From the NCBI GenBank assembly GCA_038746285.1, contig JBCDKT010000028.1:1-51763 (forward strand): a stretch of 51,763 bases of DNA, read 5' to 3'. This DNA comes from Bacteroidota bacterium. Lineage in GTDB: Bacteria; Bacteroidota; Rhodothermia; Rhodothermales; JANQRZ01. Position numbers and translations under genes: made by a program. Position 1 is the first letter of the stretch. Every line of letters begins with the position of its first letter. The notes beneath the pieces are model-generated. The model was given only the letters and a program-made list of their open reading frames with translations, was not told the origin of the DNA and did not search any database. Below are positions 5,849-45,450 of this stretch, piece after piece.

Positions 5849-7531
5849 CTAGCGGAGCACGGCGACGCGGCGTGTGGCCGAGGCACCGGCTGCGCGGAGG
5901 CGAACGAGGTAGACGCCGCTGGCGGCGAGGCGGCCTGAGCCGTCGCGCCCGTCCCACACGGCGGTGTGGGGCCCGGCCTCGTGGGCGGCGTCGGCGAGCA
6001 CGCGGACGCGGCGGCCGAGGAGATCAAAGACTTCGAGCGTGGCAGGGCCGCGCCTAGCGAGGCGGTAGCGCATCGTGGTCTGCGCGGCGAAGGGGTTGGG
6101 GAAGCCCGCGTCGAGCGCGAACGCGACCGGCTCCAGCGGCGCGCCCTCGCTCCCGGCCTCGGCGAAGGATTCGGTCCCGGCAATTATGCGGAGCCGGCGC
6201 ACCGGCGCGTCCGGCCCGAGGGTGACCTCGAACGTGCCGCCGTCCACGTCGATGCCCGTCCCGAGGTCGCGGTCGATGACCCAGAGGCCGAAGCCGGGCC
6301 GCCGCGCGCCCTCTTCGGCGAGCGACAGCGTGACGCGGCGCGGCGCGCCGAGCAGGTCCTCCGACGCCGTGACCTCCACCTCCCAGAATGTGCCGTCGGT
6401 GGGCGTGGGCCGGAGGCTGCGCGTCCAAGAGGTGCCCTCGCCGAGCACGCTGACGCGCAGGTGATCGCCGATAGGCGGCGGCTCGCGGAGACTGGGCGCT
6501 ACGCCCTCGGCAAACCCGACCACGTTCAGGGTATCCGCGTAGGCTTCGGACCGTCCGCTCAGGCGCACGGTGTAGGACGCCGACACGGGTAAGGCTTCGC
6601 GGCCGACGCCCGCCTCGCGCGGCAGCACCCTGAGGGTGACAGGCCGGTCCTCGTTGTTCGACACGAAGTAGCCCTCCCACGGCTTCAGCCGCGTCACCTC
6701 GACGTAGGGCGAGACCCCATCGTAGCGGACCGGCAGGCTCACGTCTCCGTCGGCGAGAACGTCAGCCCAGTCCACGGGGAAGGCGTAGGGGTTCCCGATC
6801 TGGTTGAAACCCGGCTGCAGAACGATCGGGGCTAGCGAGTCGGGGTTGGTGGAGTTCGCCAGGTCCACGTCGAACGCGCCGCCCGTCGCCGCAGCGACCC
6901 AGAAGGCGTCGCCGCTCGTGATGGCCTGGTCGGGCGACAGCTCGTACCGCTCCAGCGCGGGCTGCCAGCGCGCTGCGCGCCACCGAGCCGCGTCCGGCCT
7001 GCCCAGGTCATCCTCCAGAATCTCCCGGACCGACTGCACCTCGATGTCGGCAGGGACCGAGACCATCCGGTACGTGCGGGGGACGAGGCCTGCGTCGGCC
7101 CTGAACGAGCCGAGGAAAATGGGCAAGCGGACGGGGTTCTCCGCCGGGTCTTCCTCGGGAAAGGTGAGCACCTCGCTGCCGTCGAACAGCTCGCCGTAGA
7201 GGTCGAGGCCGCGCACGGTCAGGGCGTCGGCCGGGATCTCGACGGTGAACACGAGGCCGTTTTCCGGTTCTACGGCGACCGCTGTGTACGCGCTCGTCCC
7301 GGTGACGCGGTAGAAGAGCGTGCCGCTGAGGGTACTGACCTCGCGGGAGGTGACCGTCACCTGGAGCGGCTCGCCGACGACCGGCAGCAGGCGGTTCACC
7401 TCGACGACGAAGTCCTCGTAGCAGAAAACGGTGACGTCGTTGCAGGATGCTTGCGCCTGCACGCTCGGCGCGGCGGCACACGCGAGGGCGACGAGCAGGC
7501 ACCAGGTTCGGTTGATGGAGCGCATACTCAT
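5849..7531 (-). CDS. Secreted protein with T9SS-type C-terminal sorting domain
   Basis: 560 residues with a Sec signal peptide (to about residue 27, VQAQA) and several beta-sandwich-like regions. The C-terminal domain carries AGFPNPFAAQTTMRYRL, LEVFDLLGRRVRVL, WDGRDGSGRLASGVYLVRLRA-type motifs (the last read with one gap) and a basic end. That pattern is the type A sorting / FlgD-Ig-like domain that takes proteins through the type IX system to the cell surface in Bacteroidota. The ATG overlaps the stop of the upstream lipoprotein gene by four bases (ATGA), so the two are translationally coupled. The mid-region (about 150-330) contains GFNQIGNPYAFPVDW-type segments often seen in large Rhodothermia surface proteins. 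Ligand unknown. Confidence 0.75.
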   Translation of the reverse strand: MSMRSINRTWCLLVALACAAAPSVQAQASCNDVTVFCYEDFVVEVNRLLPVVGEPLQVTVTSREVSTLSGTLFYRVTGTSAYTAVAVEPENGLVFTVEIPADALTVRGLDLYGELFDGSEVLTFPEEDPAENPVRLPIFLGSFRADAGLVPRTYRMVSVPADIEVQSVREILEDDLGRPDAARWRAARWQPALERYELSPDQAITSGDAFWVAAATGGAFDVDLANSTNPDSLAPIVLQPGFNQIGNPYAFPVDWADVLADGDVSLPVRYDGVSPYVEVTRLKPWEGYFVSNNEDRPVTLRVLPREAGVGREALPVSASYTVRLSGRSEAYADTLNVVGFAEGVAPSLREPPPIGDHLRVSVLGEGTSWTRSLRPTPTDGTFWEVEVTASEDLLGAPRRVTLSLAEEGARRPGFGLWVIDRDLGTGIDVDGGTFEVTLGPDAPVRRLRIIAGTESFAEAGSEGAPLEPVAFALDAGFPNPFAAQTTMRYRLARRGPATLEVFDLLGRRVRVLADAAHEAGPHTAVWDGRDGSGRLAASGVYLVRLRAAGASATRRVAVLR

Positions 7532-8844
7532 CGGGGTCGGTTGCCGCCGGGCGGGCCGGGCGGGCCGGGAAGCGGCTCGAAGGTGACCCCACTCCCCGTC
7601 GCCCCTTCGCCAGCCGGGTTGCGGGAGGTGCCCCCGGGCAGGAAGGTCGAACCCACGCTGTCGTTGAGGCGCTGGAGCCGGCTGCCGACCAGGTCGATCC
7701 GTCTAACGTTTCCGAGCGTCCGCGCCGCGGCCAGTCCTTTCCCGACGGACCCGCCGGCTCGCTCGACGGCCCGGGCCTGCTCGGCGCGTGCCGCGGCCTC
7801 GCCGAACCCGGGGTCGCGCTTGACGGCGGCCTGGTAGGCGCTGGCAGCAGCGGCGAAGTTACCGTCGTCCTCCTCCTGGAGCCCGCGCGCGTAGAGCAGG
7901 AACGCCTGGAGGTTGCGCGTCGGCACCACGTCGAGCGCGGCGCGCTCTTCGGGCGAGAGCGTCACGCCGATCTGATCGACAATCCCGAGGACCACCTCCC
8001 GCTTCAGCCGGAACAGCCGGTTGAGGTCGTCGGTGCGCGTCTGGAGGGCGGGCTCCGGCTCGTCGAGGTCCCAGAGGGCGGCGTCGACGCGGAGGTCGCC
8101 GTCGCTCACGTCGAAGGAGCCGCCGACGGCGCGCCCGGCGCGGAGCAGGCGGCCGAGGCGCGGCGTGGTGCGCTGGTCGAACGCGGCACGCTGCGCGAGC
8201 GACAGTTCGTCGAGCAGTGCCTGGAGCCGCACCCGCTCAACGACCTGCAACCCTCCGATGCGTGCCAGGTCGGCCGTCACCATCTCGCCGAGACCCCGAC
8301 CGAGAGCCATGAACTGCGGGTCGCTGCCGAGGTAGGCGAACGGAAACACCGCCACGACGCCCGGCGGCCCGGTGTCGCTCCCGAGCGTGTCCTCGCGCGC
8401 CACGAGATCGCCGACCTCCTCGCGGAGGCGCTCCCGCGTCAGCCACTCGTAGCGCCCCTGCAGCAGCGGCCGGAACGGCGACCGAGGCGAGACGCGGACG
8501 AACTGCCCGTGGAAGCGAATGGCCTCGTCGCGGCTCCCCTCGGCTTCGAGCGTGAGGCCGAGGTAGTAGACAGTTTTGGGGTCGCTGCTGTCATCAACGT
8601 ACGCCTGGCGGAGGTACCCCTCCGCCTCGCCGAAGCGCTCGGCTTGGGCGAGGAGCACGCCGAGGTCGCGGCGCACCCGCACGTTGTCGGGCCGGCGGAC
8701 GAGGTCGGCTTGCGCGCGCGTGATCGCCCGGTCGAGCGCGCCTTCGTCGGTCGCCACGCCGGCCGGGGCGCACGCGGCCAGCAGGCCGGCGGCCAGCAGC
8801 GCGAGCAGCGAGCGGAGCATCAGCGGGCGGGAGCAGACGAGCAT
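7528..8844 (-). CDS. TPR lipoprotein with CsgG-like domain
   Basis: 438 residues. The lipoprotein signal has lipobox LAAC with Cys25; an alternative ATG at 8820 gives a shorter, more typical leader. Tetratricopeptide-like helices follow (about 35-125: RRPDNVRVRRDLGVLLAQAERFGEAEGYLRQAY). The CsgG/FlgO-like domain covers about 160-310, with VVAVFPFAYLGSD, GLGEMVTADLARIGGLQVVERVRLQALLDEL and LLRAGRAVGGSFDV. A last TPR sits near 350-385. CsgG-domain proteins form or gate outer-membrane secretion channels in curli systems; many orphan members have unknown roles. The gene sits 19 bases from a second CsgG-domain gene and overlaps the T9SS cargo gene by 4 bases, so the three probably make one envelope complex. 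Confidence 0.75.
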   Translation of the reverse strand: MLVCSRPLMLRSLLALLAAGLLAACAPAGVATDEGALDRAITRAQADLVRRPDNVRVRRDLGVLLAQAERFGEAEGYLRQAYVDDSSDPKTVYYLGLTLEAEGSRDEAIRFHGQFVRVSPRSPFRPLLQGRYEWLTRERLREEVGDLVAREDTLGSDTGPPGVVAVFPFAYLGSDPQFMALGRGLGEMVTADLARIGGLQVVERVRLQALLDELSLAQRAAFDQRTTPRLGRLLRAGRAVGGSFDVSDGDLRVDAALWDLDEPEPALQTRTDDLNRLFRLKREVVLGIVDQIGVTLSPEERAALDVVPTRNLQAFLLYARGLQEEDDGNFAAAASAYQAAVKRDPGFGEAAARAEQARAVERAGGSVGKGLAAARTLGNVRRIDLVGSRLQRLNDSVGSTFLPGGTSRNPAGEGATGSGVTFEPLPGPPGPPGGNRPR

Positions 8845-8863: not shown

Positions 8864-9871
8864 TCATCCTAGGAGCAGACGCAGACTGTCGGCACGCTCG
8901 CGGGCGCGGGTGTAGCCCGGGTCGTGCTCCAGCGCCTCGATGAACTTGTCGTAGGCCTCCTGGTACCGCTCCTGGTCGATCAGGCTGAGGCCCTCGGAGT
9001 AGGCCAGCATGGCATCGGCGGAGCGTGTCGCACCGCTCCCCCCCTGCTCTGCCAGTTCCACGTCGATGGCATCGGCCACGCGCTCGGAGAGCGCCCCGGC
9101 CAGGTCCGCGAAGTCCCGCCACCGGCCTTCGACCTGCTCGCTGAACAGGATCTCGCCGGTCTCGACCTTCACGAGCCGAGCCGAGAGCCACATGTCTTTG
9201 CCGAAGATCGTGAACGAGCCGAAGAGGACCGCCGTGACGCCGAGCAGCCGGCCAGTCTCGACGGCCGTCTGCTGGTCTACGACCGAGGCGTCGCGCTGCA
9301 GTTCGAGTTCACCGAGGAGCCACTGGATGCGGTCGCGCTCGACGACCTTCAGGTTGGTCGCTCCGTGGAGGTGGTTCACCAGGCGGTCGGCGAAGCCGCC
9401 CTGCATCGGGTCGAAGCGCTCCTTCTCGTCGACCGAGTTGTTGGCGAAGTCCATCACAGCGAGCGTCTTCATCCCCGGGTCCTCGCGCTCGACGACGTAG
9501 CTCCCGACGTACTCGGCGCGGACTTCGTAGAACAGGTTCTGGAGTGGTGGAGCCTCGCCGCGCAGTTCGACGAGCGGGGGCTCGAGTTCGAGCAGCTTCA
9601 AGAGCGCAAGCCGGGCGTCGTCCCACGCGTTGCGGGCGGCGTAGGTGCGGCCGAGCCACTGGAGCGCCTCTTTCTTGACCTCCTTGTCGGCGGCCTCGTC
9701 CTCAACGAGTGCGTCGAAGCCGACGATGGCCGTCTCGTAGTCCGCGGCTCGGTGCGCGGCGATAGCTTCGCCGAGCCGCGCCTCGTCGTGCTGTGCGTAG
9801 GCCGCGTGCGCGAGCAGTACGGCTCCGAGGCAGGCCAGCGCGCAACGTGTGTGGTGCAGAAGCGGTGTCAT
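8864..9871 (-). CDS. Periplasmic TPR protein with CsgG-like domain
   Basis: 335 residues from ATG 9871, chosen because it begins directly at a signal peptide (MTPLLHHTRCALACLGAVLL, cleavage after AAYAQ). Further upstream the frame is open but encodes no signal. TPR-like helices lie at about 27-95, then a CsgG/FlgO-like domain with TLAVMDFANNSV, GFADRLVNHLHGATNLKVVERDRIQWLLGEL and GRLLGVTAVLFGSF (about 130-260), then TPR helices at 280-330. It has the same architecture as the next gene downstream but is not a lipoprotein, so the pair are probably partners or an old duplication. The kinase gene ends 112 bases upstream. Confidence 0.75.
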   Translation of the reverse strand: MTPLLHHTRCALACLGAVLLAHAAYAQHDEARLGEAIAAHRAADYETAIVGFDALVEDEAADKEVKKEALQWLGRTYAARNAWDDARLALLKLLELEPPLVELRGEAPPLQNLFYEVRAEYVGSYVVEREDPGMKTLAVMDFANNSVDEKERFDPMQGGFADRLVNHLHGATNLKVVERDRIQWLLGELELQRDASVVDQQTAVETGRLLGVTAVLFGSFTIFGKDMWLSARLVKVETGEILFSEQVEGRWRDFADLAGALSERVADAIDVELAEQGGSGATRSADAMLAYSEGLSLIDQERYQEAYDKFIEALEHDPGYTRARERADSLRLLLG

Positions 9872-9983
9872 AGGTTTCTGGACAGGTGGACAGGCATAGC
9901 TCGGGCGCGTGGCCCTTCTCACCGGAACGAAAATAGCACCTCCCCGGGGCCGCTGCCGCAATCTGGCGCACGTCGCGCTCTTC

Positions 9984-11936
9984 TTACTGCTCTTTCATTT
10001 CAAATATAAGGGGAACGGGATCGGGTTGCTCCAGCCCTGCCCGAAGGGTAATGGTGTGGCTCGCTGGCTCTACCCGATACCCTTCGCGCCGCACCTCGAC
10101 CCGGTAGGTGCCGGGGCCGAGCGAGAGTTCCTTAGAAGCAAACTCCTGCGTGTTGCGCCCATTGATCCAGATCTCGCCCCACACGTCCCCGCTCCCCGAG
10201 GCCGGATTCGCCTGCACCCGGACCGGCGTCACGAAGTGGCACGTCGCCCTCGCGGTCTGTCCAGCGCGGACCCGCACCGTGGTTTCATAGGGTCCGTACT
10301 CCGGGCTTTCGCAGCGGACCGTGTGGCGACCAGGTGTGAGCGAGAACGTGCCCGTGCCGGTGGCTCGCTGTCCGGCCACGCGGACCGTCCCGCCTCCCCT
10401 GGACGTCAAGACGAGCGTGCCGGGCTGCTGCGAAGGCGGATCGGTCGGCGGCGGGGTAGCCTCCGAAACGCGCTGCAGGTCGGCGGCGACCTGCGTCGGG
10501 GCGTCCGGCTGGAGTTCTACGCCCTCGCGCGTCCACGGTCGGTAGCCGGCGCGTTCCAGGCGCAGCGTGACGGGCGCGCCGGTCGTGTCCTCGTACGTCA
10601 GCGGCGTCGTCCCCGCAGGCGATCCATTCACGGAGACGGTCGCCCCGGCCGGGGTCGAAGTCACCTCCAGGAGCCGCACCTCTTGCTGGTCCGGCGGCAA
10701 AGCCGCGAGGTCAAACCGCAATGCCACGGGCTCTCCCCCGGCGAGCGCGAGCAGCGTGTCCACGGGGCGGTAGCCGTCACGCTCGACGCGCAGCCGGCCG
10801 GTTCCACTCGTCACCGTCTCAATAGGCGTTTGGCCGAGCCGCTCCCCGCCGAGCGTGACGACTGCCCCGGGCGGGTCCGTGACGACACTCAGCGTCACAC
10901 CCGAGGCAGCGGGCCAGAGCCAGAACGCGAGGGCCGCAATCAGTACTGCCGCGAGCACGCCGCCGACGGCGGGCAAACGGCGCATCGGCGACGTAGCCTG
11001 TGTCTCCTGTGCGAAGGTCGCGTGCTCGACGATCGTCGGTGCCTCGCGCCGCCCCCCGCCGGCCGACGCCCCAGCAGGAACCGCTGCGAAAGCAGCCCGC
11101 ATCGCTGCCGCGTCCGGGTAGCGCTCGGCGGGGTCTTTGGCGAGGGCTTTCATCACCGTCTCGCTGACGCCGGCCGGGAGGGCTGGAGCGAACTGGGCGA
11201 GGGGCGGGTACGGCATCTCGACAATCGTTCGCATCGTCTCGAACTCGCTCTGTCCCCGCTCGAACGGCAGCCGGCCGCTCAGCATCTCGTAGATGGTCAT
11301 CCCGAGCGCGTAGAGGTCGCTCCGGCCGTCGAGGGTGCGCTCGCCCTTAACCTGCTCGGGCGACATGTAGTAGAGCGTCCCCGCGATTCCCTGCGTGACT
11401 GTGATCTCACTGTCACCGGTGCGGAGCTTGGCGAGGCCGAAGTCGGTGACCTTGACGCGCCCCGCTTCGCTCAGCAGGATGTTGCCCGGCTTGATGTCCC
11501 GGTGCACCACCCCGACGCCGTGCGCGTGCTCGAGCGCTGCGATCATCTCCAGGACGAGCGGCCGAGCGGCGGTCCATTTGAGCGGCCCGAAGTCCATGCG
11601 GTCGCTGATCGTGCCGCCGCCGATGTACTCCATCACGATGAAGAGGCCCGCCTCGGTGCGGCGAAGCGCGTAGATGCGCGTGATGTGCGGGCTGTCGATC
11701 CGGGCGAGCGCCCGGGCTTCGGACCGGAAGCGCCGCTCGAAGGACGCGTCGCGGGCGAGGTCGCGGGCGATCATCTTGAGGGCGACAGGACGAGCGAGGG
11801 CGACGTCCTCGGCTTTGTACACCACCCCCATGCCGCCGCGCCCGAGTTCTTCGAGGATGCGGTAGCCGTCGATCTCCTGGCCGATGAACGTGTCGGGCAC
11901 AGCGAAAGATGGAACGGATGGAGGCGGCAGGCGCAT
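9984..11936 (-). CDS. Membrane Ser/Thr protein kinase with PEGA repeats
   Basis: 650 residues. A Hanks-type kinase domain covers 25-285: glycine loop LGRGGMGVVY (31-40), Lys54, catalytic HRDIKPGN (145-152), DFG at 165-167 and MSPEQ (191-195), all intact. One membrane segment (about 322-342) is followed by an extracytoplasmic part built of four PEGA-like repeats (for example DPPGAVVTLGGERLGQTPIE and TPAGATVSVNGSPAGTTPLT). The topology is that of PpkA/PknB-type sensor kinases. The next gene upstream is a PP2C phosphatase, followed by an FHA protein, which is the threonine-phosphorylation trio (PpkA-PppA-Fha) that controls T6SS firing in Pseudomonas. PEGA repeats may sense or bind envelope components. 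Targets are inferred, not shown. Confidence 0.93.
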   Translation of the reverse strand: MRLPPPSVPSFAVPDTFIGQEIDGYRILEELGRGGMGVVYKAEDVALARPVALKMIARDLARDASFERRFRSEARALARIDSPHITRIYALRRTEAGLFIVMEYIGGGTISDRMDFGPLKWTAARPLVLEMIAALEHAHGVGVVHRDIKPGNILLSEAGRVKVTDFGLAKLRTGDSEITVTQGIAGTLYYMSPEQVKGERTLDGRSDLYALGMTIYEMLSGRLPFERGQSEFETMRTIVEMPYPPLAQFAPALPAGVSETVMKALAKDPAERYPDAAAMRAAFAAVPAGASAGGGRREAPTIVEHATFAQETQATSPMRRLPAVGGVLAAVLIAALAFWLWPAASGVTLSVVTDPPGAVVTLGGERLGQTPIETVTSGTGRLRVERDGYRPVDTLLALAGGEPVALRFDLAALPPDQQEVRLLEVTSTPAGATVSVNGSPAGTTPLTYEDTTGAPVTLRLERAGYRPWTREGVELQPDAPTQVAADLQRVSEATPPPTDPPSQQPGTLVLTSRGGGTVRVAGQRATGTGTFSLTPGRHTVRCESPEYGPYETTVRVRAGQTARATCHFVTPVRVQANPASGSGDVWGEIWINGRNTQEFASKELSLGPGTYRVEVRREGYRVEPASHTITLRAGLEQPDPVPLIFEMKEQ

Positions 11937-11967: not shown

Positions 11968-12735
11968 CTAGCGCACTTCGACGACGAGGACGGTCACGTT
12001 GTCGTGCCCGCCGCGCTCGTTTGCGAGGTAGACCAGACGCTCTGCCGCTGCCTGCGGTGCTTCCCCGCGAACGATGTCGCGGATCTCTTCGTCTGCCACG
12101 CGAGCCAGGCCGTCGGAGCAGAGCACGAACCGGTCCCCTGCCTGGAGGGGGTCCACGCGTTCCACGTCCACCTCGACGCCCGGCTCGACCCCGACGGCGC
12201 GGACGAGGGCGTGGCGCTGCGGGTGGCGCTCGGCCTCAGCCTCGGTCAGCACGCCCTCCCGCTGCAATTCCCCGACGAGCGTGTGGTCCTGCGTGAGCTG
12301 CGCGATGCGGCCGTTCTGGTTCACCCGGTAGACCCGGCTGTCGCCGACGTGTGCCACCCAGGCCTCACCTCCGATGAGGGCGAGCACGCTGCAGGTCGTG
12401 CCCATCTTCTTCGGCAGGGGTCCTCCGTGCGCCAGCGTGTAGACTCGCTCGTTGGCCGCGCTAATCGCCCGGGCGAGGTGCACCTCGATGGGCTTTTCCT
12501 GCTCACTGAGAGACAGACGGCCAACGATTTCGACCGTGACCCGGCTAGCCTGGCCGCCGTCCTCGTGACCGCCCATGCCGTCGGCCACGACAAATACGCA
12601 GGGGACCGGATCGCCGCCCGGAGCCGCTTCGGGGAAGACCCCGTAGGCGTCCTGGTTCTCCGAACGAACCTGCCCGACGTGGGAGCATGCGCCGTAGTGG
12701 ACGGAGAGAGGACGGGCGGATCGTTTCCAGAACAT
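11968..12735 (-). CDS. PP2C-family Ser/Thr protein phosphatase (PppA-like)
   Basis: 255 residues, soluble, a complete PP2C/Stp1 domain. The metal-binding motifs are present: RSENQDAYGVF (24-34), VVADGMGGHEDG, GTTCSVLAL, HVGDSRVYRVN, LCSDGLARVA and the C-terminal GGHDNVTVLVVE. It removes phosphate from Ser/Thr residues using two metal ions. It lies 31 bases before the kinase gene and 7 bases after the FHA-transglycosylase gene, so it almost certainly opposes that kinase. In T6SS clusters this role belongs to PppA (TagG), which resets the phosphorylated FHA protein. Confidence 0.95.
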   Translation of the reverse strand: MFWKRSARPLSVHYGACSHVGQVRSENQDAYGVFPEAAPGGDPVPCVFVVADGMGGHEDGGQASRVTVEIVGRLSLSEQEKPIEVHLARAISAANERVYTLAHGGPLPKKMGTTCSVLALIGGEAWVAHVGDSRVYRVNQNGRIAQLTQDHTLVGELQREGVLTEAEAERHPQRHALVRAVGVEPGVEVDVERVDPLQAGDRFVLCSDGLARVADEEIRDIVRGEAPQAAAERLVYLANERGGHDNVTVLVVEVR

Positions 12736-12742
12736 GAGCAGG

Positions 12743-14467
12743 TCAGGGGCGGGTGAGCGGCGCGCGCGCGAGGGGCGAAGCCTGCTCGATGTAGCGCTGC
12801 AACGGGTTGTCGAAGTCGAAGCCGAAGAGGCGCGGGTTCTGGCCGATCACGGCCGCGGAGAAGATGTAGAGCACGTAGTTCTTCGTCTCCTCCGGCATCC
12901 GCTCCTCGTACTGGTTCAGGAAGCGCCAGTAGCTCCGCTGCTGCGGGGTCTCGCCGAGCCCCGCGAAGAAGTCCTGCTGCGCCCCCGCCTGCAGCCGGTT
13001 CAGCTTGGGGACGACGCGGTGCTCGCCCCAGTTGTAGGACGCCATCGCGAGCAGGCCCGAGGCCTGGGCCAGTTCTGTGTAGATGTCGGCGAGGTACCGC
13101 GCCGCCGCCTCGGTCGACCTCTCGAAGTCGTGCCGCTCGTCCTGCGGGTCGTAGACGCCGAGGTCTTCGCGCGGGCCGGTGGCGAGGCCGTAGGCCTGCC
13201 CCGTGGACGGGATGAACTGCCACATGCCCTTGGCATGCCCGAACCGCGTCCAGGGCCCGACTCGTTCGGCGACAAAATCACTCTCCTGCATGGCGAGGTA
13301 GAAGAACTCGGGCGGGAGTCCGTGCCGCTGAAAGGCATCGACGATGACCGGCGTGTAGCCGTTGTTCTCGGCGCGCCGCACGGCCGTCTCGAAGCGCCTC
13401 GTGCTCTGCCAGTAGCCGATGTACTCCCTGACGGCCCGGATGAAGCCGGCGGGGATCGCAAACTCGCTCTCGTTGAAGATGCGCGCTACCCGGTAGATCT
13501 CTTTCTCTTCGTCCGAGAGCGCCCGGTAGAGGCCGTGCTCTTCGACGTAGCCCGCGTAGCGGCGCGCCATGCGGCGTCCAGCCTCCGCCTGCTCCTCCAG
13601 AAGCACAGCTAGCTCCTCGTTCCCCTCCACCTCAACGGCGCTGAGCGTCTGCGCAGTGCGGAGATCCTGTTCTTTCATCTCGTAGAAGAGGGTCTCGGCC
13701 AGGCCGGACAGGTGCTCCAGCCGGGTCTGCTGCCAGATCGCGAAGCCGAGCGCGCAGAGCAGGAGCACGGCGACTCCGGCGACCACCTTGCCGTAGGCCA
13801 GTTGCTGCTGCTGCTGCACCTCTTGGAACGCCTGGCGGATCATCATCGTCCGCTCGCCCGCCGGCTCGCCCGCGCCCTCCTCCTCGAAGTAGCTCCGGAT
13901 GACCTGGCTGACGGACCCCGGATCGGCCGAGGCGTCAGGGGGCTCGCTCATCTCGGCTGCGTAGCCTGGCTCTGTCCGAGCCGATTCGGTTGGGGTCGGC
14001 CCCGACGCCTCGTCGCTCGGTGACCAGTCGGTGGCTGGTTCGGGCGGTCGCTCCCGCTGCCGCGCCCGCTTCGTAACCCTCTCAGCAAACGCGGGCGGGG
14101 CTGCTTCGGGCTCGGGCAGCACTGGCTTCGGTGCGGCGTCTACCGACAGATAGACGAACGGCCCTTCCTTCCCGAGGCGCACCGTCGTCTCGGCACCGAG
14201 TTCGACTCGCTCGATCCGCGCTCCGTTGTGGTACGTTCCGTTCGTGCTCTCGGCGTCGCGCAGCACCCATCGCCCGTCCTCTCGGGCTACCTCGACGTGC
14301 ACCCGGCTCACCCGTCCCGAGTCGACGAGCAGCGTTGCCTGCATGCCGCGCCCGATGCTGAAGCGCTCCGTGAAGGTCCGCTCCGCGTTGGGGATGGACG
14401 TGCCCTCGATGCGGACCCGGACTGCGGGCCGCTCGGCGTCGTTTGGCGGCGGGTAGGAGGACGGCAC
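12743..14467 (-). CDS. FHA domain - membrane segment - lytic transglycosylase fusion
   Basis: 574 residues. The N-terminal FHA domain (about 18-110) keeps the phospho-threonine-binding residues: IGRG with Arg40, RVSRVHVEV with Ser54 and His57, and STNGTYHNG with Asn76. A Pro/Glu-rich, probably cytoplasmic linker (110-205), a Gln-rich patch (217-222) and one membrane segment (about 228-245) follow. The periplasmic part carries a family-1 SLT domain (about 365-510): AMQESDF with catalytic Glu395, GMWQFIPSTGQAYGL (414-428) and AMASYNWGEHRV. Lytic transglycosylases cut peptidoglycan with formation of 1,6-anhydro-muramic ends. No signal peptide precedes the FHA domain, which is consistent with a cytoplasmic FHA and a periplasmic enzyme. 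It is encoded 7 bases upstream of the phosphatase. I infer a phospho-controlled wall-opening enzyme for T6SS assembly. Confidence 0.9.
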   Translation of the reverse strand: MPSSYPPPNDAERPAVRVRIEGTSIPNAERTFTERFSIGRGMQATLLVDSGRVSRVHVEVAREDGRWVLRDAESTNGTYHNGARIERVELGAETTVRLGKEGPFVYLSVDAAPKPVLPEPEAAPPAFAERVTKRARQRERPPEPATDWSPSDEASGPTPTESARTEPGYAAEMSEPPDASADPGSVSQVIRSYFEEEGAGEPAGERTMMIRQAFQEVQQQQQLAYGKVVAGVAVLLLCALGFAIWQQTRLEHLSGLAETLFYEMKEQDLRTAQTLSAVEVEGNEELAVLLEEQAEAGRRMARRYAGYVEEHGLYRALSDEEKEIYRVARIFNESEFAIPAGFIRAVREYIGYWQSTRRFETAVRRAENNGYTPVIVDAFQRHGLPPEFFYLAMQESDFVAERVGPWTRFGHAKGMWQFIPSTGQAYGLATGPREDLGVYDPQDERHDFERSTEAAARYLADIYTELAQASGLLAMASYNWGEHRVVPKLNRLQAGAQQDFFAGLGETPQQRSYWRFLNQYEERMPEETKNYVLYIFSAAVIGQNPRLFGFDFDNPLQRYIEQASPLARAPLTRP

Positions 14468-14600: not shown

Positions 14601-16430
14601 TCACGCACGCGGCACGGGGAGCCCAACCGCGAGGTGGACCGGATGATACAGGACGTGGCGCGGAGGCTGCAAACGCACCGCGAGCAAATCGTGCCCGTCG
14701 ATCTCTGCGTCCGGCACCGGCTCAACGGTGACGGCGTCGGCCGGCACCTCCGCTCCGGGTGCACCGAGGAAGGTCTGGAGCTTCTGGGCGACGGCGTCCT
14801 GCTTCGCCTCCAGCGTGTCCGCTGGGTCGAGCTCGCCCGGAAGCTGGAGTAGGCGGTGCCCGGCGCGGGTAGCGAAAAGGCCGCAGGCCAGCGTGGCGTG
14901 AGCTGCCGCCTGCGCCGCTTTATCCAGGTCGTCGAAGCGTTGCGGCTTCGAGAGGTTCGGAGCATGCACGAGGCGCACCGTGTCCCCGTTGGCGTGGCCG
15001 GCGAGGACGGCAAACCCGGCCTCCGCAAGTTCTGCCGCCTTCGCCTCGGGCAGGAGCCTCGCCAGCGGGGTCTGCCCGCGCTTCGTCGGTCGGATCGGCA
15101 GGTTGCCGATCTGCTGCCCTGCGAGGTGGGTCGGCCATCCGGTCCCGGCAAAGGACGCCCCCATCGCCACCCCGACCGCGAGGGCCCCGCCGCCCCACAA
15201 GAACCCCTCTTCATCGAGCGGCACCTCCTTCGACGGGTTGTCCGGACCGTAAGGGGCCCGCAGCAGAAGCGGCGGGAACGCCAGCGCGACAAACCGCGCC
15301 TCGTCCTTCTCACGCAGCTTGTTCCAGTGGATGTAGTCCGGCCCCTCCACAAGGTGAGATACGAGCGGGATGGCTTCCTCCGCTTCCGGCGCGCCGAGTC
15401 CGAAGAAGCCGGGGTCGACCGAGGCGATGATGGGGACTTGGAGGCTCGCTCCGGTCCCGGCAAGGTCATCGAGCAGAGCCACGTCGGCCTGGCTGTTGCC
15501 GAACGCGAAGCCGAGCAGGACGGCCGAGAGCGGAGCCCGCCCGTCGTCTGCGCTGTGCTCGGGCAGGAGCACCTGCTCGTAGAGCGCCTCGCTCAGGTCG
15601 TCGCGCCCGGCCGGCAGCACGTCGAGGTGGACCCCGTCGCGCAGCGGCAGGCGGTCCGCGAGAAACTTCAGCCCGCGCCACGCGGCTTCGAGCCGCCGGA
15701 GGCCCGGGTGCTCAAGGATCGCTCGGAGTTGGCCGCCGAGCTTGCGGTCAAAGTCGGCGAGGATAGTGTCGGCGGCGGAGGCCGCAACGCGCGGCTCGTC
15801 GCCCGAGACGGCACCCGCTATCGCATCGCCGATGCTCTTCGGCTCCTCTGCGCCGTCGGCGCCCGCGTCCACCATTCCCATCAGCCGGTCGAGCGCGGCG
15901 TCCTCGCCAGTGTTTTTCGGTTTGGGTGGTGCGGGGGTGGGCGGCGCGACCGTGAGCTGGGCGTACAGCCCGTCTGCCGAGGCTTCATCCACCCCGGCTT
16001 CGGCGAGGCGGGCGCGGAACGTCTCCCGGTCGGTCCCTTTCGTGCGAACGCCGTAGACCTCGGTGCGGATCGCGAGCAGCCGGGCGAGCGCCGGCACCTG
16101 GCGCGCGAGGCCGCCCGGCGTAAAATCCTTCAGCGACGTAAACCGGAGGGATAGTTCTAGCGCCTTCGGCTCCGAGCTGAGGTGGTTGGGCACGCCGAGC
16201 CGGAGCGTGGGCTGCCACTCGGCCATGAGCTTAGCGAAGCCGTTCGCGTCTACGGACCGGACCAGCGACTCGCCGCGCCAGTTGCGTTTTACCTCCGGCG
16301 CGAGATCGGCCACGAGCAACAGCCGGAGCGGCATCGGCACTTCGCGCTGCCGCAACTCGGACTCAGGTTGCGTGATAGAGGTCGTGTCCGACGTGATGCG
16401 GATCCCGATGTTCTTGTGCGCGTCACTCAT
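14601..16430 (-). CDS. TssB-TssC fusion paralogue (T6SS sheath-like protein)
   Basis: 609 residues. Residues about 30-150 align by eye with the separate TssB of this window (VPMPLRLLLVADL versus LPMRLMVMGDY; SLKDFTPGGLARQVPALARLLA versus SMKSFTPEEVAKQVPQLNRMLA). After a proline linker (PPTPAPPKPK, 163-172), residues 178-609 follow TssC (LEAAWRGLKFLADR, YIHWNKLREKDEARFVALAFPP, FLWGGGALAV). Canonical TssB and TssC are separate chains that interlock into the contractile sheath; the genes for those lie at 32.6-34.7 kb. This diverged single chain is encoded with the kinase, phosphatase and FHA genes. It could be a specialised sheath end piece, a sheath of another system, or a regulator. It retains LDRLMGMV (180-187), resembling the TssC N-terminal helix read by ClpV, but internally. 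Confidence 0.82.
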   Translation of the reverse strand: MSDAHKNIGIRITSDTTSITQPESELRQREVPMPLRLLLVADLAPEVKRNWRGESLVRSVDANGFAKLMAEWQPTLRLGVPNHLSSEPKALELSLRFTSLKDFTPGGLARQVPALARLLAIRTEVYGVRTKGTDRETFRARLAEAGVDEASADGLYAQLTVAPPTPAPPKPKNTGEDAALDRLMGMVDAGADGAEEPKSIGDAIAGAVSGDEPRVAASAADTILADFDRKLGGQLRAILEHPGLRRLEAAWRGLKFLADRLPLRDGVHLDVLPAGRDDLSEALYEQVLLPEHSADDGRAPLSAVLLGFAFGNSQADVALLDDLAGTGASLQVPIIASVDPGFFGLGAPEAEEAIPLVSHLVEGPDYIHWNKLREKDEARFVALAFPPLLLRAPYGPDNPSKEVPLDEEGFLWGGGALAVGVAMGASFAGTGWPTHLAGQQIGNLPIRPTKRGQTPLARLLPEAKAAELAEAGFAVLAGHANGDTVRLVHAPNLSKPQRFDDLDKAAQAAAHATLACGLFATRAGHRLLQLPGELDPADTLEAKQDAVAQKLQTFLGAPGAEVPADAVTVEPVPDAEIDGHDLLAVRLQPPRHVLYHPVHLAVGLPVPRA

Positions 16431-21562: not shown

Positions 21563-21567
21563 GCGTC

Positions 21568-37626: not shown

Positions 37627-40600
37627 TCAGTTTAGCGTTGCCGGAGGCGAGAAGGCGAAGAACTGCGTAGCGTTGTTGAAGGGGAAGGCGCGGCTGCGCG
37701 TGCTGAGCGTGTAGACCGCCGTGACGACGTATTCGTCGGGCTCCCGGAATGGCCAGCGCACCTCGTACTGCGTCGTCGTGGTGCGTCGCACGTCGGCCTG
37801 CTGGAGGAGCCGGAACCAGGCCCAGTCACCCTCGAACTGCTTGGGACCGAGTTCGCCTCGGTTGGTCGAGACCGAGAGGCGAGCGCCCGACGGGCCGGGC
37901 CACGCGAACGGCGTCGAGGGACGGAACGAGCCCAGGCCGTAGCTGTCCGGGGTTCCGTGGATCAGGACCGAGACCCGGCTGGGGTTCGGCGCGTCGCCGT
38001 CGCGCTCGGGCAGGTCGGCCTGGAGTTCGAACGCGAGTTGGAGTGTGCCTCCGCTGAAGAGTGCCTCGCCGATAGCCTGCGCCCTGCCGAGCGCGGTTTC
38101 GGCCCGCCCGGAGAGACCGATAGACCCGCCGCCCCAGGTACGCGGCCGGCCGTCCTGGGTCAGGTAGGGAGCCAGCACCTCGTCGTAGAACGCGGCGAGC
38201 GTGCCATCGCCGGGCCGGAAGAAGCGCTCGAAGTCGTCGAGCGGGGCATCCTGCCGGCTGTTCGGGTCGAAGGGATAGGTACCGGCGAGCGTGCGCTGGA
38301 ACTCGGCCTGGACCTCAGCGCGCCAGCGCTCGTTGAGGCGGCGCTGCGCCGACCCGAGGATGGTGCCCCACGCGACGTAGACCGGCTCCTCGAAGAGTGT
38401 CCGGCGCACGTCGGCGTCGAGGCGGCGGAGTCCGCCCCGGATCTGGCCGAGCGCGTTGTTCAGACGCCCGCCGTTGTCCCCCACGACGGCCGCGGCAAAC
38501 TCGGCAGCCTGGGCAGGGTCGGCGGCTCCTTCGAGCATGCTGCCCACCTGGCCGAGCGCCTCGAGCGCCCGGTAGAGGCCCTCGCCCGCGCCTCCGCTCT
38601 CGGCCTGGTCCGCCTGTAAGGCATGCAGCCCCACGAACTGCCGCATCACGGGGTGCATGTTCTCGTCGCCGCCGAGCCCGTCGGTGGCGCGGCCGGTCAC
38701 CCTGCGCCGGACTTGGTCGCCCTGCCGGCGCACGGCGTCCGCTATCCCCTGGCCGACCTGCCCGCCCGGCAGGTCGCCGAAGGTCGTCTCGGCCGTAATC
38801 CGGGCCAGCACGTAGATGAGCGGCGAGTCCGTCGTGTTCGAGAGGAAGCTGAGGTAGGTGACGGCCGTCGGCGCATCGCTGAAGGACTGGTAGCGGACGC
38901 TCCGCATGAAGCGCTTCCAGGCTCGCCCGTAGTCCTCGAAGTAGAACTCGTTGAGCCGCGCCAGCATCTCGCCCGCCTGGAGCATGTCCGGCGGCAGCTC
39001 GTCTCCCGAGACGCCCATCACCCAGTCGTCGCGCGAGGGGTCTTCACTCTCGGTCTCGAACGCCTGGCGAGCGAACTCGTCCCAGCCCCGCTGGGTGAAG
39101 AAGCCCGGAACGCGCGGCCCGCCGCCCTCGCCGAGTTGGAACATGGCGTGGAAGCGCGGGGGCACGACCTCGGCGAGGCGGACCGGGGGGAGGACGGCGC
39201 TGCCCTCGCTGCGGAGGCGGTTGTAGACTCCGCGAACGGAGGGCTGCTCGTAGATCAGGTCGCGCGTGCTCAGGACGAGGCCCGCCTCGGGCTCGAAGGG
39301 CGCGACGGCGGCGGCGTCCAGCCCCTCGACGAACGCCGCGAGGTGCCGGTCGATGCCCGCCGGCGCGATAGCCGAGGTGGAGTCCGCGCCGTAGAGCGAG
39401 CCGTAGGTCACGTCGGTCAGGTACTGCTGGAGGAACGCCGCGTTGGCCTCGTCGTCGAGGCGCTGCGCGTCTGAGGTGAGCAGGAGGTACGCCTTGAGGT
39501 CCTCGTAGGCGCTCCGCCGCGCCGACGAGTCGGAGGCGACGCGTCCGAGGCGGTCCCGCAGCGTGGCCAGCGGGTAGGCTTCGACGAACGCCCGTGCCCG
39601 CGCGTGGTAGAGCGCGCGCGCCGGCTCGAGCACGGTCCCGCGCCGGTTGAGGCCGAGCTGAAGCAGCGGCGGGCCGCCGCCGAGGCGGTCGATCTCGTCG
39701 CGGAGCAACGTCATCCGGTCCAGGTTGGCGATGCTCGGGCGGCGGTCGTCCCAGCGGACGAGGGCGGCCTCTGACGCCGCGTCGCGGGCGCGGTCGAGGT
39801 CACTCTTGCTGCGGAAGACCGCCTGCGAGGCTCCGAGGAGGAACAGCACGAGCGCCGCCACCGCCGCCGCCGAGGTCCCGGCGCGGGCCAGCCGCCGCTG
39901 CGTCGCCGCCCGCGAGGTCTGCCGCCCGAGGTACTGGTCGGGGATCACGACCTCGGTGAACACGTCCTTGATGAAGTAGCTCTTGGCCTCGGTCTCCGCG
40001 CCGAGCGGGGTCATCTCCGGCGGGAGGTCGAACTCCGCCTCGATGGCGCGGATGACGTGGTCGATGGGAACGCCTTCCTGGGTACCGCTCGTGAAGTAGA
40101 ACCCGCGAAAGATGGGCGTCTCCTGGTACGGGTTCGGCTGGAACAGGCGGGCGACGAACGGCCCGAGGGCACCGCGCAGCGAGGCGAACTGGAGCGGGAA
40201 GTTGTAGACCAGCTTGCGCTCCTCGCGCTTCATCGCCCGGCGCAGCCGCCGCGAGCGGAAGCCCGAGAGCGCCTCGGCGAGCCGGTCGAACTCCCGCTCG
40301 AAGAGCGCCCGGAAGCCGGCCTCGGGGGCCGCGTCCGGCTCCAGCGTAGCGCCCCAGATCACCTCGCGCTCGCGCCGGTCGAACTCGCCGAAGAACTCGA
40401 CGAAGCCTTGCAGCAGGTCGGTCTTGGTGAAGAGGAGGTAGACCGGGAAGCGGATGCCGAGGTGCCTGATGAGCTCGTCGATCCGCGCGCGGACGGTGTC
40501 GGCGTGGCGCTCTATCTCGGCCGGCGACGCGCCGGCCAGCTCGTCGAGCGCGATGCCGACGAGGACGCCGTTGATGGGGCGCTCCTTGCGGTGCTTCTTG

Positions 40601-41193
40601 AGGATCTCCAGGAACGCGATCCACTCGTCGTTGTCCTCGCGCTCGGTGACGTAGCGGCCCGCCGTGTCGAGGAGAATCGCCTGATCGGTGAAGAACCAGT
40701 CGCAGTCGCGGGTGCCGCCGACGCCGCGCACGCGGTCCGTGCCGACGGGGAAGCTGAGGCCCGAGTTGGCGATCGCCGTCGTCTTGCCCGCGCCGGGCGG
40801 GCCGATGAAGAGGTACCACGGCAGGGCGTAGAGGGCGGCCTTGCCGCCACCGGGCCGCCACCCCTTCTTGCCGAGCTTGGACTGCTTGAGCGTCTCGATG
40901 GCGCGCTCCAGGTCCGCCTGGAGCTGCTCGATCTCGGCCTGCTGGTCCGGCCGGACGTTCTGCTGCTGCGAGGCCGCCTGGGCCATGAGCTGCTGCTCCA
41001 GCCCGCTCGACGCCTGCGCGGCCTTCATCTGCCGCATCATCAGCGCGAGGCCGACGAGCAGCAGCGCGACCGCGAGCGCGAGCCCCGTCACCACGAGCGA
41101 CCACTCCATGACGAGCGCGGCCAGCAGCACCAGCAGCACCACGAGGACCACGCCGAGGCCGATCCAGAATCCTTTGCTCGTCAGCCACGTCAT
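37627..41193 (-). CDS. tssM: T6SS membrane-complex protein TssM (IcmF family)
   Basis: 1188 residues. Two N-terminal membrane segments (about 9-28 and 33-52) are followed by a cytoplasmic NTPase domain with Walker A GPPGAGKTTAIANSGL near 130 and the DTAGRYV stretch. A third membrane segment lies near 435-455 (AAAVAALVLFLLGASQAVF). A large periplasmic domain continues to the end, including IcmF-related DUF1215 and C-terminal beta regions (ARLSVSTNRGELGPKQFEGDWAWFRLLQ in pieces). TssM spans the envelope with TssJ and TssL. Its start overlaps the tssL stop by 4 bases (ATGA). An intact Walker A suggests nucleotide use. Confidence 0.96.
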   Translation of the reverse strand: MTWLTSKGFWIGLGVVLVVLLVLLAALVMEWSLVVTGLALAVALLLVGLALMMRQMKAAQASSGLEQQLMAQAASQQQNVRPDQQAEIEQLQADLERAIETLKQSKLGKKGWRPGGGKAALYALPWYLFIGPPGAGKTTAIANSGLSFPVGTDRVRGVGGTRDCDWFFTDQAILLDTAGRYVTEREDNDEWIAFLEILKKHRKERPINGVLVGIALDELAGASPAEIERHADTVRARIDELIRHLGIRFPVYLLFTKTDLLQGFVEFFGEFDRREREVIWGATLEPDAAPEAGFRALFEREFDRLAEALSGFRSRRLRRAMKREERKLVYNFPLQFASLRGALGPFVARLFQPNPYQETPIFRGFYFTSGTQEGVPIDHVIRAIEAEFDLPPEMTPLGAETEAKSYFIKDVFTEVVIPDQYLGRQTSRAATQRRLARAGTSAAAVAALVLFLLGASQAVFRSKSDLDRARDAASEAALVRWDDRRPSIANLDRMTLLRDEIDRLGGGPPLLQLGLNRRGTVLEPARALYHARARAFVEAYPLATLRDRLGRVASDSSARRSAYEDLKAYLLLTSDAQRLDDEANAAFLQQYLTDVTYGSLYGADSTSAIAPAGIDRHLAAFVEGLDAAAVAPFEPEAGLVLSTRDLIYEQPSVRGVYNRLRSEGSAVLPPVRLAEVVPPRFHAMFQLGEGGGPRVPGFFTQRGWDEFARQAFETESEDPSRDDWVMGVSGDELPPDMLQAGEMLARLNEFYFEDYGRAWKRFMRSVRYQSFSDAPTAVTYLSFLSNTTDSPLIYVLARITAETTFGDLPGGQVGQGIADAVRRQGDQVRRRVTGRATDGLGGDENMHPVMRQFVGLHALQADQAESGGAGEGLYRALEALGQVGSMLEGAADPAQAAEFAAAVVGDNGGRLNNALGQIRGGLRRLDADVRRTLFEEPVYVAWGTILGSAQRRLNERWRAEVQAEFQRTLAGTYPFDPNSRQDAPLDDFERFFRPGDGTLAAFYDEVLAPYLTQDGRPRTWGGGSIGLSGRAETALGRAQAIGEALFSGGTLQLAFELQADLPERDGDAPNPSRVSVLIHGTPDSYGLGSFRPSTPFAWPGPSGARLSVSTNRGELGPKQFEGDWAWFRLLQQADVRRTTTTQYEVRWPFREPDEYVVTAVYTLSTRSRAFPFNNATQFFAFSPPATLN

Positions 41194-41915
41194 GGGGTTG
41201 CCACCGTTTCGATGTCCCGCGCCACCTCGGCAGCGGTGCGGTTCATGTAGACTGTCATGCCGAGGTAGATCACCAGGCTGAGCATGACGACCGCGGTCAC
41301 GACGGCCCAGGTTGGCACCCGGCTGCGGACTTCAGTGGCGACCTGGCCGCGCGGCTGGCCGTGCGGGGCAAGCTGCCCCGGTGCCATGCCCGGCTGGCGT
41401 TCCACCTCACTCTGGACCTCTTCGACGAGCATGCGGAGTTCTTCCTGCCCGTGCAACTGGTACTTCCCCTTGAAGCCCAGCGCCATGCAGAGGTAGTAGA
41501 CCTCCAGCACTTCGGCGTGGAGGCCGGGGTTGGCCCGCATCCCGTCGAGCCGGTCGAAGAACGTCTCGCCCGCGTCGAAGCGGTCGTAGAGTTCGAGCTG
41601 GAGCGGGTTCGAGAGCCACTGGTTCTTCTGGCTCCACCCCGACGAGAGCAGCGTCTCGTCGAGGAAGGCGACGAGGGCGAACTCGGCCTCGCGGATGTCC
41701 TCAGGCGCGAGCCCGGTGCCCTCAGCCTCGCGCCGGGTAGTCTCCAGGAGGTGCTTGATCCGGCGGCGGAGCATCTCGGCATCCCCGTACTCCTGCGTCG
41801 CCCGAAGCTGGAGCGCGAGCGAGAAGCACGGCGCATATACGTCGGCGAGGCGGGCGCTGAAATCGCCGAAGCTGCCGAAGTGCGCGTCGGGCGGAGGGCT
41901 GGCCGTCGTGGGCAT
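41190..41915 (-). CDS. tssL: T6SS membrane-complex protein TssL (DotU/IcmH family)
   Basis: 241 residues. The cytoplasmic DotU domain (about 20-170) has EAEFALVAFLDETLLSSGW, NPLQLELYDRFDAGETFFDRLD and LEVYYLCMALGFKGKYQLHG. One C-terminal membrane segment (about 200-222, AVVTAVVMLSLVIYLGMTVYM) anchors it. There is no OmpA-like peptidoglycan-binding extension, so wall anchoring must come from elsewhere or be absent. It is translationally coupled to tssM. The 90 bases upstream hold the second purine-tract repeat. Confidence 0.95.
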   Translation of the reverse strand: MPTTASPPPDAHFGSFGDFSARLADVYAPCFSLALQLRATQEYGDAEMLRRRIKHLLETTRREAEGTGLAPEDIREAEFALVAFLDETLLSSGWSQKNQWLSNPLQLELYDRFDAGETFFDRLDGMRANPGLHAEVLEVYYLCMALGFKGKYQLHGQEELRMLVEEVQSEVERQPGMAPGQLAPHGQPRGQVATEVRSRVPTWAVVTAVVMLSLVIYLGMTVYMNRTAAEVARDIETVATP

Positions 41916-41950
41916 GGCGGACGGTGGACAGGGGCTCGAAGGGTGACGGT

Positions 41951-42005
41951 CTCGTTAGCTTGTTCGGCTTTACTTGTCTCTCTCCTCTCTCTCCTCTCTC
42001 TCCTC
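41951..42005. repeat. Three 9-bp TCTCTCCTC repeats with the same 27-base flank
   Basis: TCTCTCCTC occurs three times (41979-41987, 41988-41996, 41997-42005), directly against the tssK stop codon. The flank 41951-41977 matches 37530-37556 with three mismatches. As in the other copy, the coding strand shows stop codon, purine tract, then the conserved block, then the next gene. Confidence 0.88.
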
Positions 42006-43358
42006 TCACGTAGCGATCAGCTCCATGTGCAGCTGGCCGAACTCGGCAGGGACAAAGATGGCGAGGCCGCCGCTGGCCTGGATCGCCTCCCAGAACGGCC
42101 CGCGCTTCTGCAGCTGGAAGTACGTCGCCTGGTTGTCCATCGGGACCCCGGAGGGCAGTCGGTTCGTGTGCTCGACGCTCAGCGCGCGGGTGTAGCTGCG
42201 GAGCACCGCGTCGATCGTGTCCGGCGAGGCGACCCGGATCATCTGCGGAAGCTCCTGGGCCAGCCGCGCCTCGGGGAGGTCGTCGCTGCGGACGAGGAGG
42301 AAGAACTGCGCCTCGTCGAGCAGCCGGCCGTCGGGCTGGGCGACGTAGAGGTTCTCGCGCTCCTCGCGGAGCGGGACGCGGGCGTAGTTGGCTTTCGGAG
42401 CCGCCCCTCCCAGCAACTCCATTAGGATGGCGTCGAGCGCGTTGAAGCAGGTGGTGAGGTCGGCGTGGGCGTAGACCGGGTAGTCGCGTGGGGCCGTCGA
42501 GGCACCAGGAGTGAAGGCGGCGAGGTGGCCGGCGAGGGCGAGGAGGGTCGTGTAGAGCGCCTCCGGGTGGGCGTCGCCCCTGGCGTGGTGGTGGTTGAGG
42601 AGAGGGACGTAGGTGCTCATGGCGAGGTTCAGCCCCAGCACGGTCAGGTCGGCGGGCGAGAGCTCGCGCTGCTGGGTCACGCCGCGCCACCGGTCAGCCA
42701 GGGTCGTGCTGCGGGCGACGAGGAGTTCGAGCAGGCGGCGCGCGAACTGGTTCAGCCGCGCCGAGGCCCCGGTACGGAGGCAGGTCGGGATGAACGTCTC
42801 GCGGAGCGCGAACAGGCCGGTCTCGCGGCGATGCACTTCGGCGACGGGGAGCACCGTGAACTCAGGCAGCGCCTCGGTCCCGAACCCGATCCTGAACCTC
42901 GGCTGTGCTACCTCGACGGTGCGCTCGTCGGCCCCCGTGGTGTCGTCGGGGAGCGAGACCGGGGTCGCGGCGAAGCGCGTCTCGCGGCTCGCGGCTCCGT
43001 TGCGGGCCACGTTGCCGCCGCCCGGGCGCTCCGCCGGAATCGCGAGGACGACCGAGAGCGCGTCGCCGGTGGCGGCGAAGTGCTCGCCCAGGCTGCGCGG
43101 CTCCGGGAGCGGCCCCTCGTCGGGCAGGCTGAAGGGGAGCCCGTCGGGCATCACCCCGGCGCACCGCAGCAGCGCCACCTCGCCGTTGGCGAGCCGCTCT
43201 TCATCGAGCGCGAGCTCCGTCAGCCCCCAGCCGTGCCGCGTAAGCGCCCCGACGCGGGCGTGGACGACGCCCTGGTGGTACCGGTCCCACTGCTGGAGGT
43301 GGTGGGGGTCGAGAGTCATCCCCTCGTACCAGACGGTCTTGCCTCGGTCCTGCGCCAT
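42006..43358 (-). CDS. tssK: T6SS baseplate-membrane connector TssK
   Basis: 450 residues, a full-length TssK. It opens with VWYEGMTLDPHHLQQWDRYHQGVVHARVGAL (in pieces, 9-39), the most conserved part of the family. It continues with GWGLTELALDEERLANGEVAL, the GLFALRETFIPTCLRTGASARL mid-region, and a helical C-terminal head. TssK trimers join the baseplate to TssL-TssM. It follows tssJ by 34 bases. Confidence 0.96.
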   Translation of the reverse strand: MAQDRGKTVWYEGMTLDPHHLQQWDRYHQGVVHARVGALTRHGWGLTELALDEERLANGEVALLRCAGVMPDGLPFSLPDEGPLPEPRSLGEHFAATGDALSVVLAIPAERPGGGNVARNGAASRETRFAATPVSLPDDTTGADERTVEVAQPRFRIGFGTEALPEFTVLPVAEVHRRETGLFALRETFIPTCLRTGASARLNQFARRLLELLVARSTTLADRWRGVTQQRELSPADLTVLGLNLAMSTYVPLLNHHHARGDAHPEALYTTLLALAGHLAAFTPGASTAPRDYPVYAHADLTTCFNALDAILMELLGGAAPKANYARVPLREERENLYVAQPDGRLLDEAQFFLLVRSDDLPEARLAQELPQMIRVASPDTIDAVLRSYTRALSVEHTNRLPSGVPMDNQATYFQLQKRGPFWEAIQASGGLAIFVPAEFGQLHMELIAT

Positions 43359-43392
43359 GATGGAATGCGGATGGGGGCACGCAGCGGGTGCG

Positions 43393-43860
43393 CTAGGGAA
43401 TGGTCACGAACAGCCGGTTCTCGCCGACGCGCACGGCGACCGTTTTGCCACGCACCGCGTCAACGGGATAGATGGCTCGCCAGTGGTCCGGGTCCGGCAG
43501 CCTCAAGTCGGCGGCGAAACCGACGAACTGCGTCTCGTCACCGAGCACCAGATCGGCACTCTCCGTCACGTTGGGAAAGAGTTGGACTTCGCGCGGGCTG
43601 CCGAGCAGTTCGTCGCCAAGTTCCTGCTCGTCGCTCTGCCAGAAGGCTTGCGCCGAGGCGCGCTGGAAGTTGGCGTCGCCCGCCAGCTGGTAGATGCGCA
43701 CGACGGCCGCGTTGCCGCCCGCGTTGAGGTTGGCCTCGCCGACCAGCGTGACGACGGTCGGCGTGGGCGGCGGCGGCGTCCGGCTGCACCCGGACAGGGC
43801 CAGCACGGTGAGGGCGCACATTACGACCCGGACGTTTCGCACGGAGGCACGCAGGGACAT
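43393..43860 (-). CDS. tssJ: T6SS outer-membrane lipoprotein TssJ
   Basis: 155 residues. The lipoprotein signal has lipobox LSGC and Cys25. A transthyretin-like beta sandwich follows (VVTLVGEANLNAGGNAAVVRIYQLAG in pieces, QRASAQAFWQSDEQELGDELLG), with the conserved VRIYQL strand and the FVGFAADLR strand. TssJ anchors TssM to the outer membrane. Its presence separates this machine from the Bacteroidota-specific T6SS subtype, which has no TssJ. It lies 75 bases after the FHA gene. Confidence 0.93.
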   Translation of the reverse strand: MSLRASVRNVRVVMCALTVLALSGCSRTPPPPTPTVVTLVGEANLNAGGNAAVVRIYQLAGDANFQRASAQAFWQSDEQELGDELLGSPREVQLFPNVTESADLVLGDETQFVGFAADLRLPDPDHWRAIYPVDAVRGKTVAVRVGENRLFVTIP

Positions 43861-45312: not shown

Positions 45313-45365
45313 GGGGGCTCGGGGTCGGGCGAAGAAGGCCTGGCTGTCGGACGCGGTGCGCCCGG

Positions 45366-45394
45366 AAAGTAGGGGTCCCGACTCCAACAAGCAA
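45366..45394 (-). promoter_or_regulatory. Promoter-like site upstream of tagH / T6SS operon
   Basis: On the minus strand, TTG (45394-45392), 20 bases, then TACTTT (45371-45366). It has the same layout and the same TACTTT core as the csp promoter site. A start about 7 bases on would leave a leader of roughly 47 bases before the tagH ATG at 45312. Confidence 0.45.
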
Positions 45395-45450
45395 GGGCCC
45401 GCAGCCACGGCGCGAGCAGCATCGTGCGACCTGGTCGCTCGCGCTGCCCC

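Follow-up and report, generated by a model that had tools for sequence, protein, structure and literature searches.

Local cutting of the cell's own wall without lysis by bacteria building a type VI secretion system (T6SS) is known mainly for two enzymes, MltE and TagX. TagX, an L,D-endopeptidase anchored in the inner membrane and encoded in T6SS clusters, opens the wall through a periplasmic enzyme domain and is required for T6SS secretion in Acinetobacter, Burkholderia and Ralstonia (PMC5061870), while MltE is a housekeeping lytic transglycosylase that is recruited and stimulated by TssM for assembly of the membrane complex in enteroaggregative E. coli (PMC10433429, PMC5841429). Control by threonine phosphorylation has likewise been described: the PpkA/PppA/Fha pathway of P. 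aeruginosa and Agrobacterium comprises a kinase, a PP2C phosphatase and FHA partners (PMC3953482, PMC10433429), with Fha reading phosphothreonine (pThr) on the membrane complex, and in Agrobacterium the binding of Fha to pThr14 of TssL activates the T6SS (PMC3953482).

Here, we analysed a 51,763-nucleotide stretch of DNA from a Rhodothermales genome (the window; GCA_038746285.1, contig JBCDKT010000028.1), which holds a complete T6SS island with, at one end, a gene module encoding a protein that joins an FHA domain to a lytic transglycosylase (SLT) domain (FHA-SLT). Taking together its architecture, its active-site and pocket residues, the genomes in which it occurs, its proximity to and co-occurrence with T6SS genes and the losses that go with one another, we consider it reasonably likely that FHA-SLT is a T6SS-dedicated inner-membrane lytic transglycosylase tied to the threonine-phosphorylation pathway of the system, with the probable role of opening the wall for the T6SS under signal control. 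Both T6SS wall hydrolases and control by threonine phosphorylation are thus known in kind, and the combination in one chain is, as far as we have seen, new: searches of an open-access literature library yielded no description of a protein combining FHA with SLT or lytic transglycosylase in a T6SS, and Boyer et al. 2009 do not mention one.

The FHA-SLT gene (12743..14467; all window features given here lie on the minus strand) is a single intact open reading frame of 574 residues, with a GTG start at 14467 and its stop at 12743, and is not a chance reading frame, since long homologues occur in 17 of 60 genomes of the order and on the 80 contigs of a wider scan. Two Pfam matches exceed their curated cut-offs, FHA at residues 37–99 (E 1.6e-13) and SLT at residues 381–494 (E 2.7e-13, 50 bits), and hydrophobicity peaks in a 19-residue stretch starting at residue 226. 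An AlphaFold2 model built with 54 homologues (mean pLDDT 82.8) shows an FHA sandwich at residues 16–110 (14138..14422), a disordered linker at about 112–185, a single continuous helix at 205–281 that crosses the membrane, with the transmembrane segment at about residues 226–244 (13736..13792), and a helical, MltD-like SLT domain at 319–562 (12782..13513). The initial annotation, which had read an intact FHA domain, a transmembrane segment and an intact SLT domain with catalytic Glu395 in one protein, is therefore confirmed by Pfam, hydrophobicity and the model. We infer that the FHA domain is cytosolic and the SLT domain periplasmic, because a K/R-rich charge pattern precedes the membrane helix in homologues.

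Catalytic Glu395 (13283..13285) and the GxWQF and AxYNxG motifs place the enzyme part, by sequence, in lytic transglycosylase family 1. The glutamate is conserved in 81 of 81 sequences spanning many phyla and, like the FHA residues and Thr207, lies outside the search patterns of our wider scan, which span SLT motifs 2 and 3, so that the conservation of those two motifs is biased. In the FHA part, the R, S, H and N of a pThr pocket are present, indicating a predicted phosphothreonine reader; the pocket residues of the window protein are G39, R40, S54, R55, H57, S74, N76 and G77, with R40, S54 and H57 kept in all 79 sequences that cover them and N76 in 80 of 80. Among solved structures, the SLT part is closest to the MltD-like 8rhe and the FHA part to FHA domains from mycobacteria, and a search with the whole model returned FHA-type structures as the only interpretable matches among the top 50. 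FHA-SLT shares the SLT fold and the motifs ES, GxWQF and AxYNxGE with MltD-type enzymes (8rhe, NF008050), but lacks LysM repeats, is fused to a transmembrane segment and FHA, and scores 45.6 bits against the MltD equivalog NF008050, short of the curated cut-off of 508 bits. A tree of SLT domains places every FHA-SLT protein, those with dead domains among them, in a clade of its own, separated from the MltD-like paralogues of the order with support of 100/100; the sequences indicate that the family has one origin.

Several other identities were considered and rejected. FHA-SLT is not TagH, scoring 42.6 bits with TIGR03354 against a cut-off of 120.25, and a separate TagH/Fha protein with an FHA and a weak T6SS_FHA_C match is encoded at 43936..45408. 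It has no Pfam match to the VanY-type peptidase (PF13539) of TagX, and TssW of Acidovorax, considered as a potential homologue, belongs to the outer membrane. Thus, FHA-SLT resembles TagX in its predicted placement, as an inner-membrane-anchored wall hydrolase, but would cleave glycans with an SLT domain and carries a cytosolic FHA domain, whereas TagX is an L,D-endopeptidase without FHA. It resembles MltE in its predicted activity and T6SS use, but is encoded in the island, spans the inner membrane and has a phospho-reader domain.

Two variants of the architecture were also observed. A short paralogue (L002, 1363-2007(-) on G000:C29; also in G001) consists of the FHA half, at 52% identity, with a C-terminal hydrophobic segment and no SLT, and three proteins of family f4 (L041, L043, L044) carry a low-complexity, repeat-rich insert of about 500 residues between FHA and the membrane helix.

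Besides TssA, B, C, F, G and ClpV, the island encodes TagF, TagH and, at 37627..43860, the membrane and baseplate core TssM, TssL, TssK and TssJ; VgrG was assigned by eye and position, and a PAAR-like (DUF4150-like) protein by eye alone. The module at its end runs in the order fused TssB-TssC, FHA-SLT, PP2C, PEGA kinase, two CsgG/TPR proteins and a FlgD-Ig protein, a gene order preserved in most relatives. The PP2C-type Ser/Thr phosphatase gene (11968..12735; Pfam PP2C_2, E 6.6e-19) ends at 12735, which bears out the earlier reading of a 7-base gap; the Ser/Thr kinase with PEGA repeats (9984..11936; Pkinase E 9.4e-49, PEGA E 4e-36), described there as adjacent, is indeed present but lies two genes away, beyond the phosphatase. 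The two TPR/CsgG-like proteins (the first, CsgG-LpoB-like, at 8864..9961 and the second at 7528..8844) are conserved neighbours by Pfam and gene-order comparison. With a Ser/Thr kinase, a PP2C phosphatase and an FHA protein, the island contains the genes of a T6SS threonine phosphorylation pathway, as in the PpkA/PppA/Fha systems; unlike those, it has a second FHA protein besides TagH that bears a wall-cleaving domain, and its kinase, which carries PEGA repeats, is accompanied by CsgG-like proteins in place of TagQRST. In other phyla, 28 of 73 loci have a Ser/Thr kinase (STK) or PP2C gene within 10 kb of the FHA-SLT gene.

T6SS effectors commonly contain SLT domains, and FHA-SLT is encoded on the island's effector side, close to the VgrG/PAAR cluster, in a region with PAAR-like, nuclease-like and Imm49-like genes. 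Nevertheless, we regard an exported antibacterial effector as a very improbable reading, given the internal transmembrane segment, the modelled folded FHA domain in the cytosol, the lack of fusion to PAAR or VgrG and a kinase/phosphatase module that, unlike variable effectors, is conserved across genera. The Imm49-like gene of this region is at 18130-18909(-), and a ketoacyl-synthase-like gene is at 20435-21595(-). The conserved upstream neighbour of FHA-SLT, the TssB/TssC N-terminal domain fusion (14601..16430), is encoded in addition to a regular TssB and TssC. It turns up again in T6SS-bearing genomes of the order, G047 with no FHA-SLT among them, and in a Nitrospirae locus (L062), and may serve to cap or nucleate the sheath.

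FHA domains recognise pThr and not phosphoserine, often selecting the residue at position +3. Residues 100–225 of FHA-SLT form a mostly unalignable linker, to which a juxtamembrane motif around Thr207 (13847..13849), with the consensus G-E-H/R-T-M-M-I/V-R-x-A-F, is the near-invariant exception: the column holds T in 80 of 81 sequences, E once and S never, and position +3 is I, V, M, F or L in nearly all. The motif was not found in the other T6SS or module proteins of the window that were scanned. These features make Thr207 a candidate phosphosite in a motif shaped like an FHA ligand, although its conservation could instead serve helix structure. Thr207 would be the candidate counterpart of the own-chain phosphothreonine bound by FHA in the GarA/OdhI and DgcB switches (6i2p, 2kb3, 6hc1), differing in that it adjoins a membrane helix leading to a putative periplasmic enzyme.

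The initial annotation had proposed an architecture search for T6SS co-occurrence as a means of refuting its reading, and the outcome was favourable. Among 60 genomes of the order, the window's own included, 17 encode long FHA-SLT homologues and 16 TssK, with both in 15, FHA-SLT without TssK in two (G010, G022), TssK without FHA-SLT in one (G047, which also lacks the close phosphatase) and neither in 42 (Fisher p=3.9e-11, a value that overstates independence because the genomes are related). The wider scan covered 84,980 species, and we took the 80 best-scoring of 234 confirmed stretches. According to record titles, these 80 come from Rhodothermia, Acidobacteria, Aminicenantes, Nitrospirae, Desulfobacteria and relatives, Ignavibacteria/Chlorobi, KSB1, Gemmatimonadetes, Chrysiogenales and Gamma/Betaproteobacteria, a spread of about ten phylum-level lineages. 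T6SS genes were within reach of 34 of the 80 loci, a count from 10 kb flanks in which single-sequence tblastn and home-made HMMs under-detect them, and we accordingly searched whole genomes for TssK. After setting aside three contigs also among the 60 genomes of the order, TssK was found in 65 of the 77 genomes from these best-scoring loci. Of the other 12, one has TssC, a second carries ClpV, TssG and VgrG next to the gene, and another three yield one match each, to VgrG, PAAR or a TssBC-like protein. As a background, 37 of 199 genomes of the phylum Acidobacteriota have TssK, a comparison that is a guide only because it covers one phylum; strong FHA-SLT matches occur in four of the 199, and most TssK-bearing Acidobacteriota genomes lack the protein, so the T6SS does not generally need it. 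Many Acidobacteria with FHA-SLT have two TssK genes within a few kb (G065:C7, G103:C495, G126:C64 and others).

The link to the T6SS is thus strong but not absolute. In two small clades (L086/L107/L130 and L075/L089/L094), neither TssK nor TssC was found in what are mostly fragmented assemblies, yet FHA-SLT is intact with its catalytic Glu, a pattern by clade that suggests either a T6SS-free use or a divergent T6SS; in two members of the first the gene lies beside one for a NamZ muramidase. Such cases would fit a general wall-remodelling enzyme under a Ser/Thr kinase envelope-stress pathway, loosely tied to the T6SS and with neighbours that form a shared signalling operon, as would the CsgG/LpoB-like and PEGA envelope genes of the module and the several Acidobacteria in which the gene lies apart from the T6SS cluster. 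We consider this explanation unlikely in view of the strong co-occurrence with TssK, the absence of FHA-SLT from nearly all T6SS-free genomes of the order, and the loss of Glu395 in the one family of the order, f9, that has the signalling genes but no detectable sheath.

This sister family (L045, L046 and L047, from three genera) keeps FHA (66–68 Pfam bits in the two complete domains), while its proteins have no SLT match and lack both Glu395 and the motif around Thr207. All three genomes retain the close phosphatase, with a kinase near the gene; TssC was not found, TssK, TssL and TssM are found only in G031, and a search for relatives of the f9 TssM in G010 and G022 found none. L045 and L046 also keep TagH and have, by eye, a large FG-GAP/LRR-like protein nearby. 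The mirror image occurs in G046 (L042), of the genus of G032 and G039, which has a T6SS and keeps Glu395 and SLT (59 bits), while its FHA pocket is broken (R40S, S54R, R55D, S74R, G77Q) and the Thr207 motif is gone; its genome has no match to the phosphatase family, and no STK or TagH was found in 80 kb around the T6SS. From these two events, one genome and one family, the enzyme therefore tracks the secretion machine and the FHA pocket the phosphatase, with Thr207 lost if either is lost; relaxed constraint could be the cause of the Thr207 loss in both. The earlier proposal that kinase signalling may recruit or activate wall cleavage at the very place of T6SS assembly gains partial support here, in that the mirror-image losses favour a phospho-input joined to a wall-cleaving output and STK or PP2C genes are often nearby. 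The same family bears on a peptidoglycan sensor or scaffold, whose SLT domain would bind wall glycans and signal damage of the envelope to the kinase pathway, catalysis being of secondary importance: f9 retains FHA, phosphatase and kinase with a dead SLT domain, and the PEGA kinase and CsgG-like proteins resemble an envelope sensor (cf. TagQRST-PpkA, PMC10433429). However, G046 retains Glu395 after losing the FHA pocket, the opposite of what a sensor needs, and Glu395 is otherwise invariant across phyla, making this reading quite improbable.

For a T6SS-dedicated, signal-controlled transglycosylase, the PEGA kinase would phosphorylate threonines of TagH or of the T6SS membrane complex, with Thr207 of FHA-SLT as a further probable target. 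FHA domains, those of FHA-SLT itself and/or TagH, would bind these phosphothreonines and cluster or release the enzyme at the assembly site, as suggested by the intact pocket and the Agrobacterium Fha–TssL precedent. The periplasmic SLT domain would then cut glycan strands so that TssJLM crosses the wall, in keeping with Glu395, the fold and the known need for MltE or TagX, and the PP2C phosphatase would reset FHA-SLT. More tentatively, FHA-SLT may represent a widespread, undescribed T6SS accessory family in which an own-chain switch, FHA reading Thr207, turns on a periplasmic glycan cutter. If so, kinase signalling would decide when and where the wall opens for the T6SS, and many phyla would possess a dedicated enzyme coupled, within a single polypeptide, to the kinase pathway that sets off firing. 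Substitutions at R40, Thr207 and Glu395 would tell signal reading, switching and cutting apart. Bacteria in culture that carry FHA-SLT include Roseithermus sacchariphilus, Thiocapsa roseopersicina and Thiorhodococcus drewsii.
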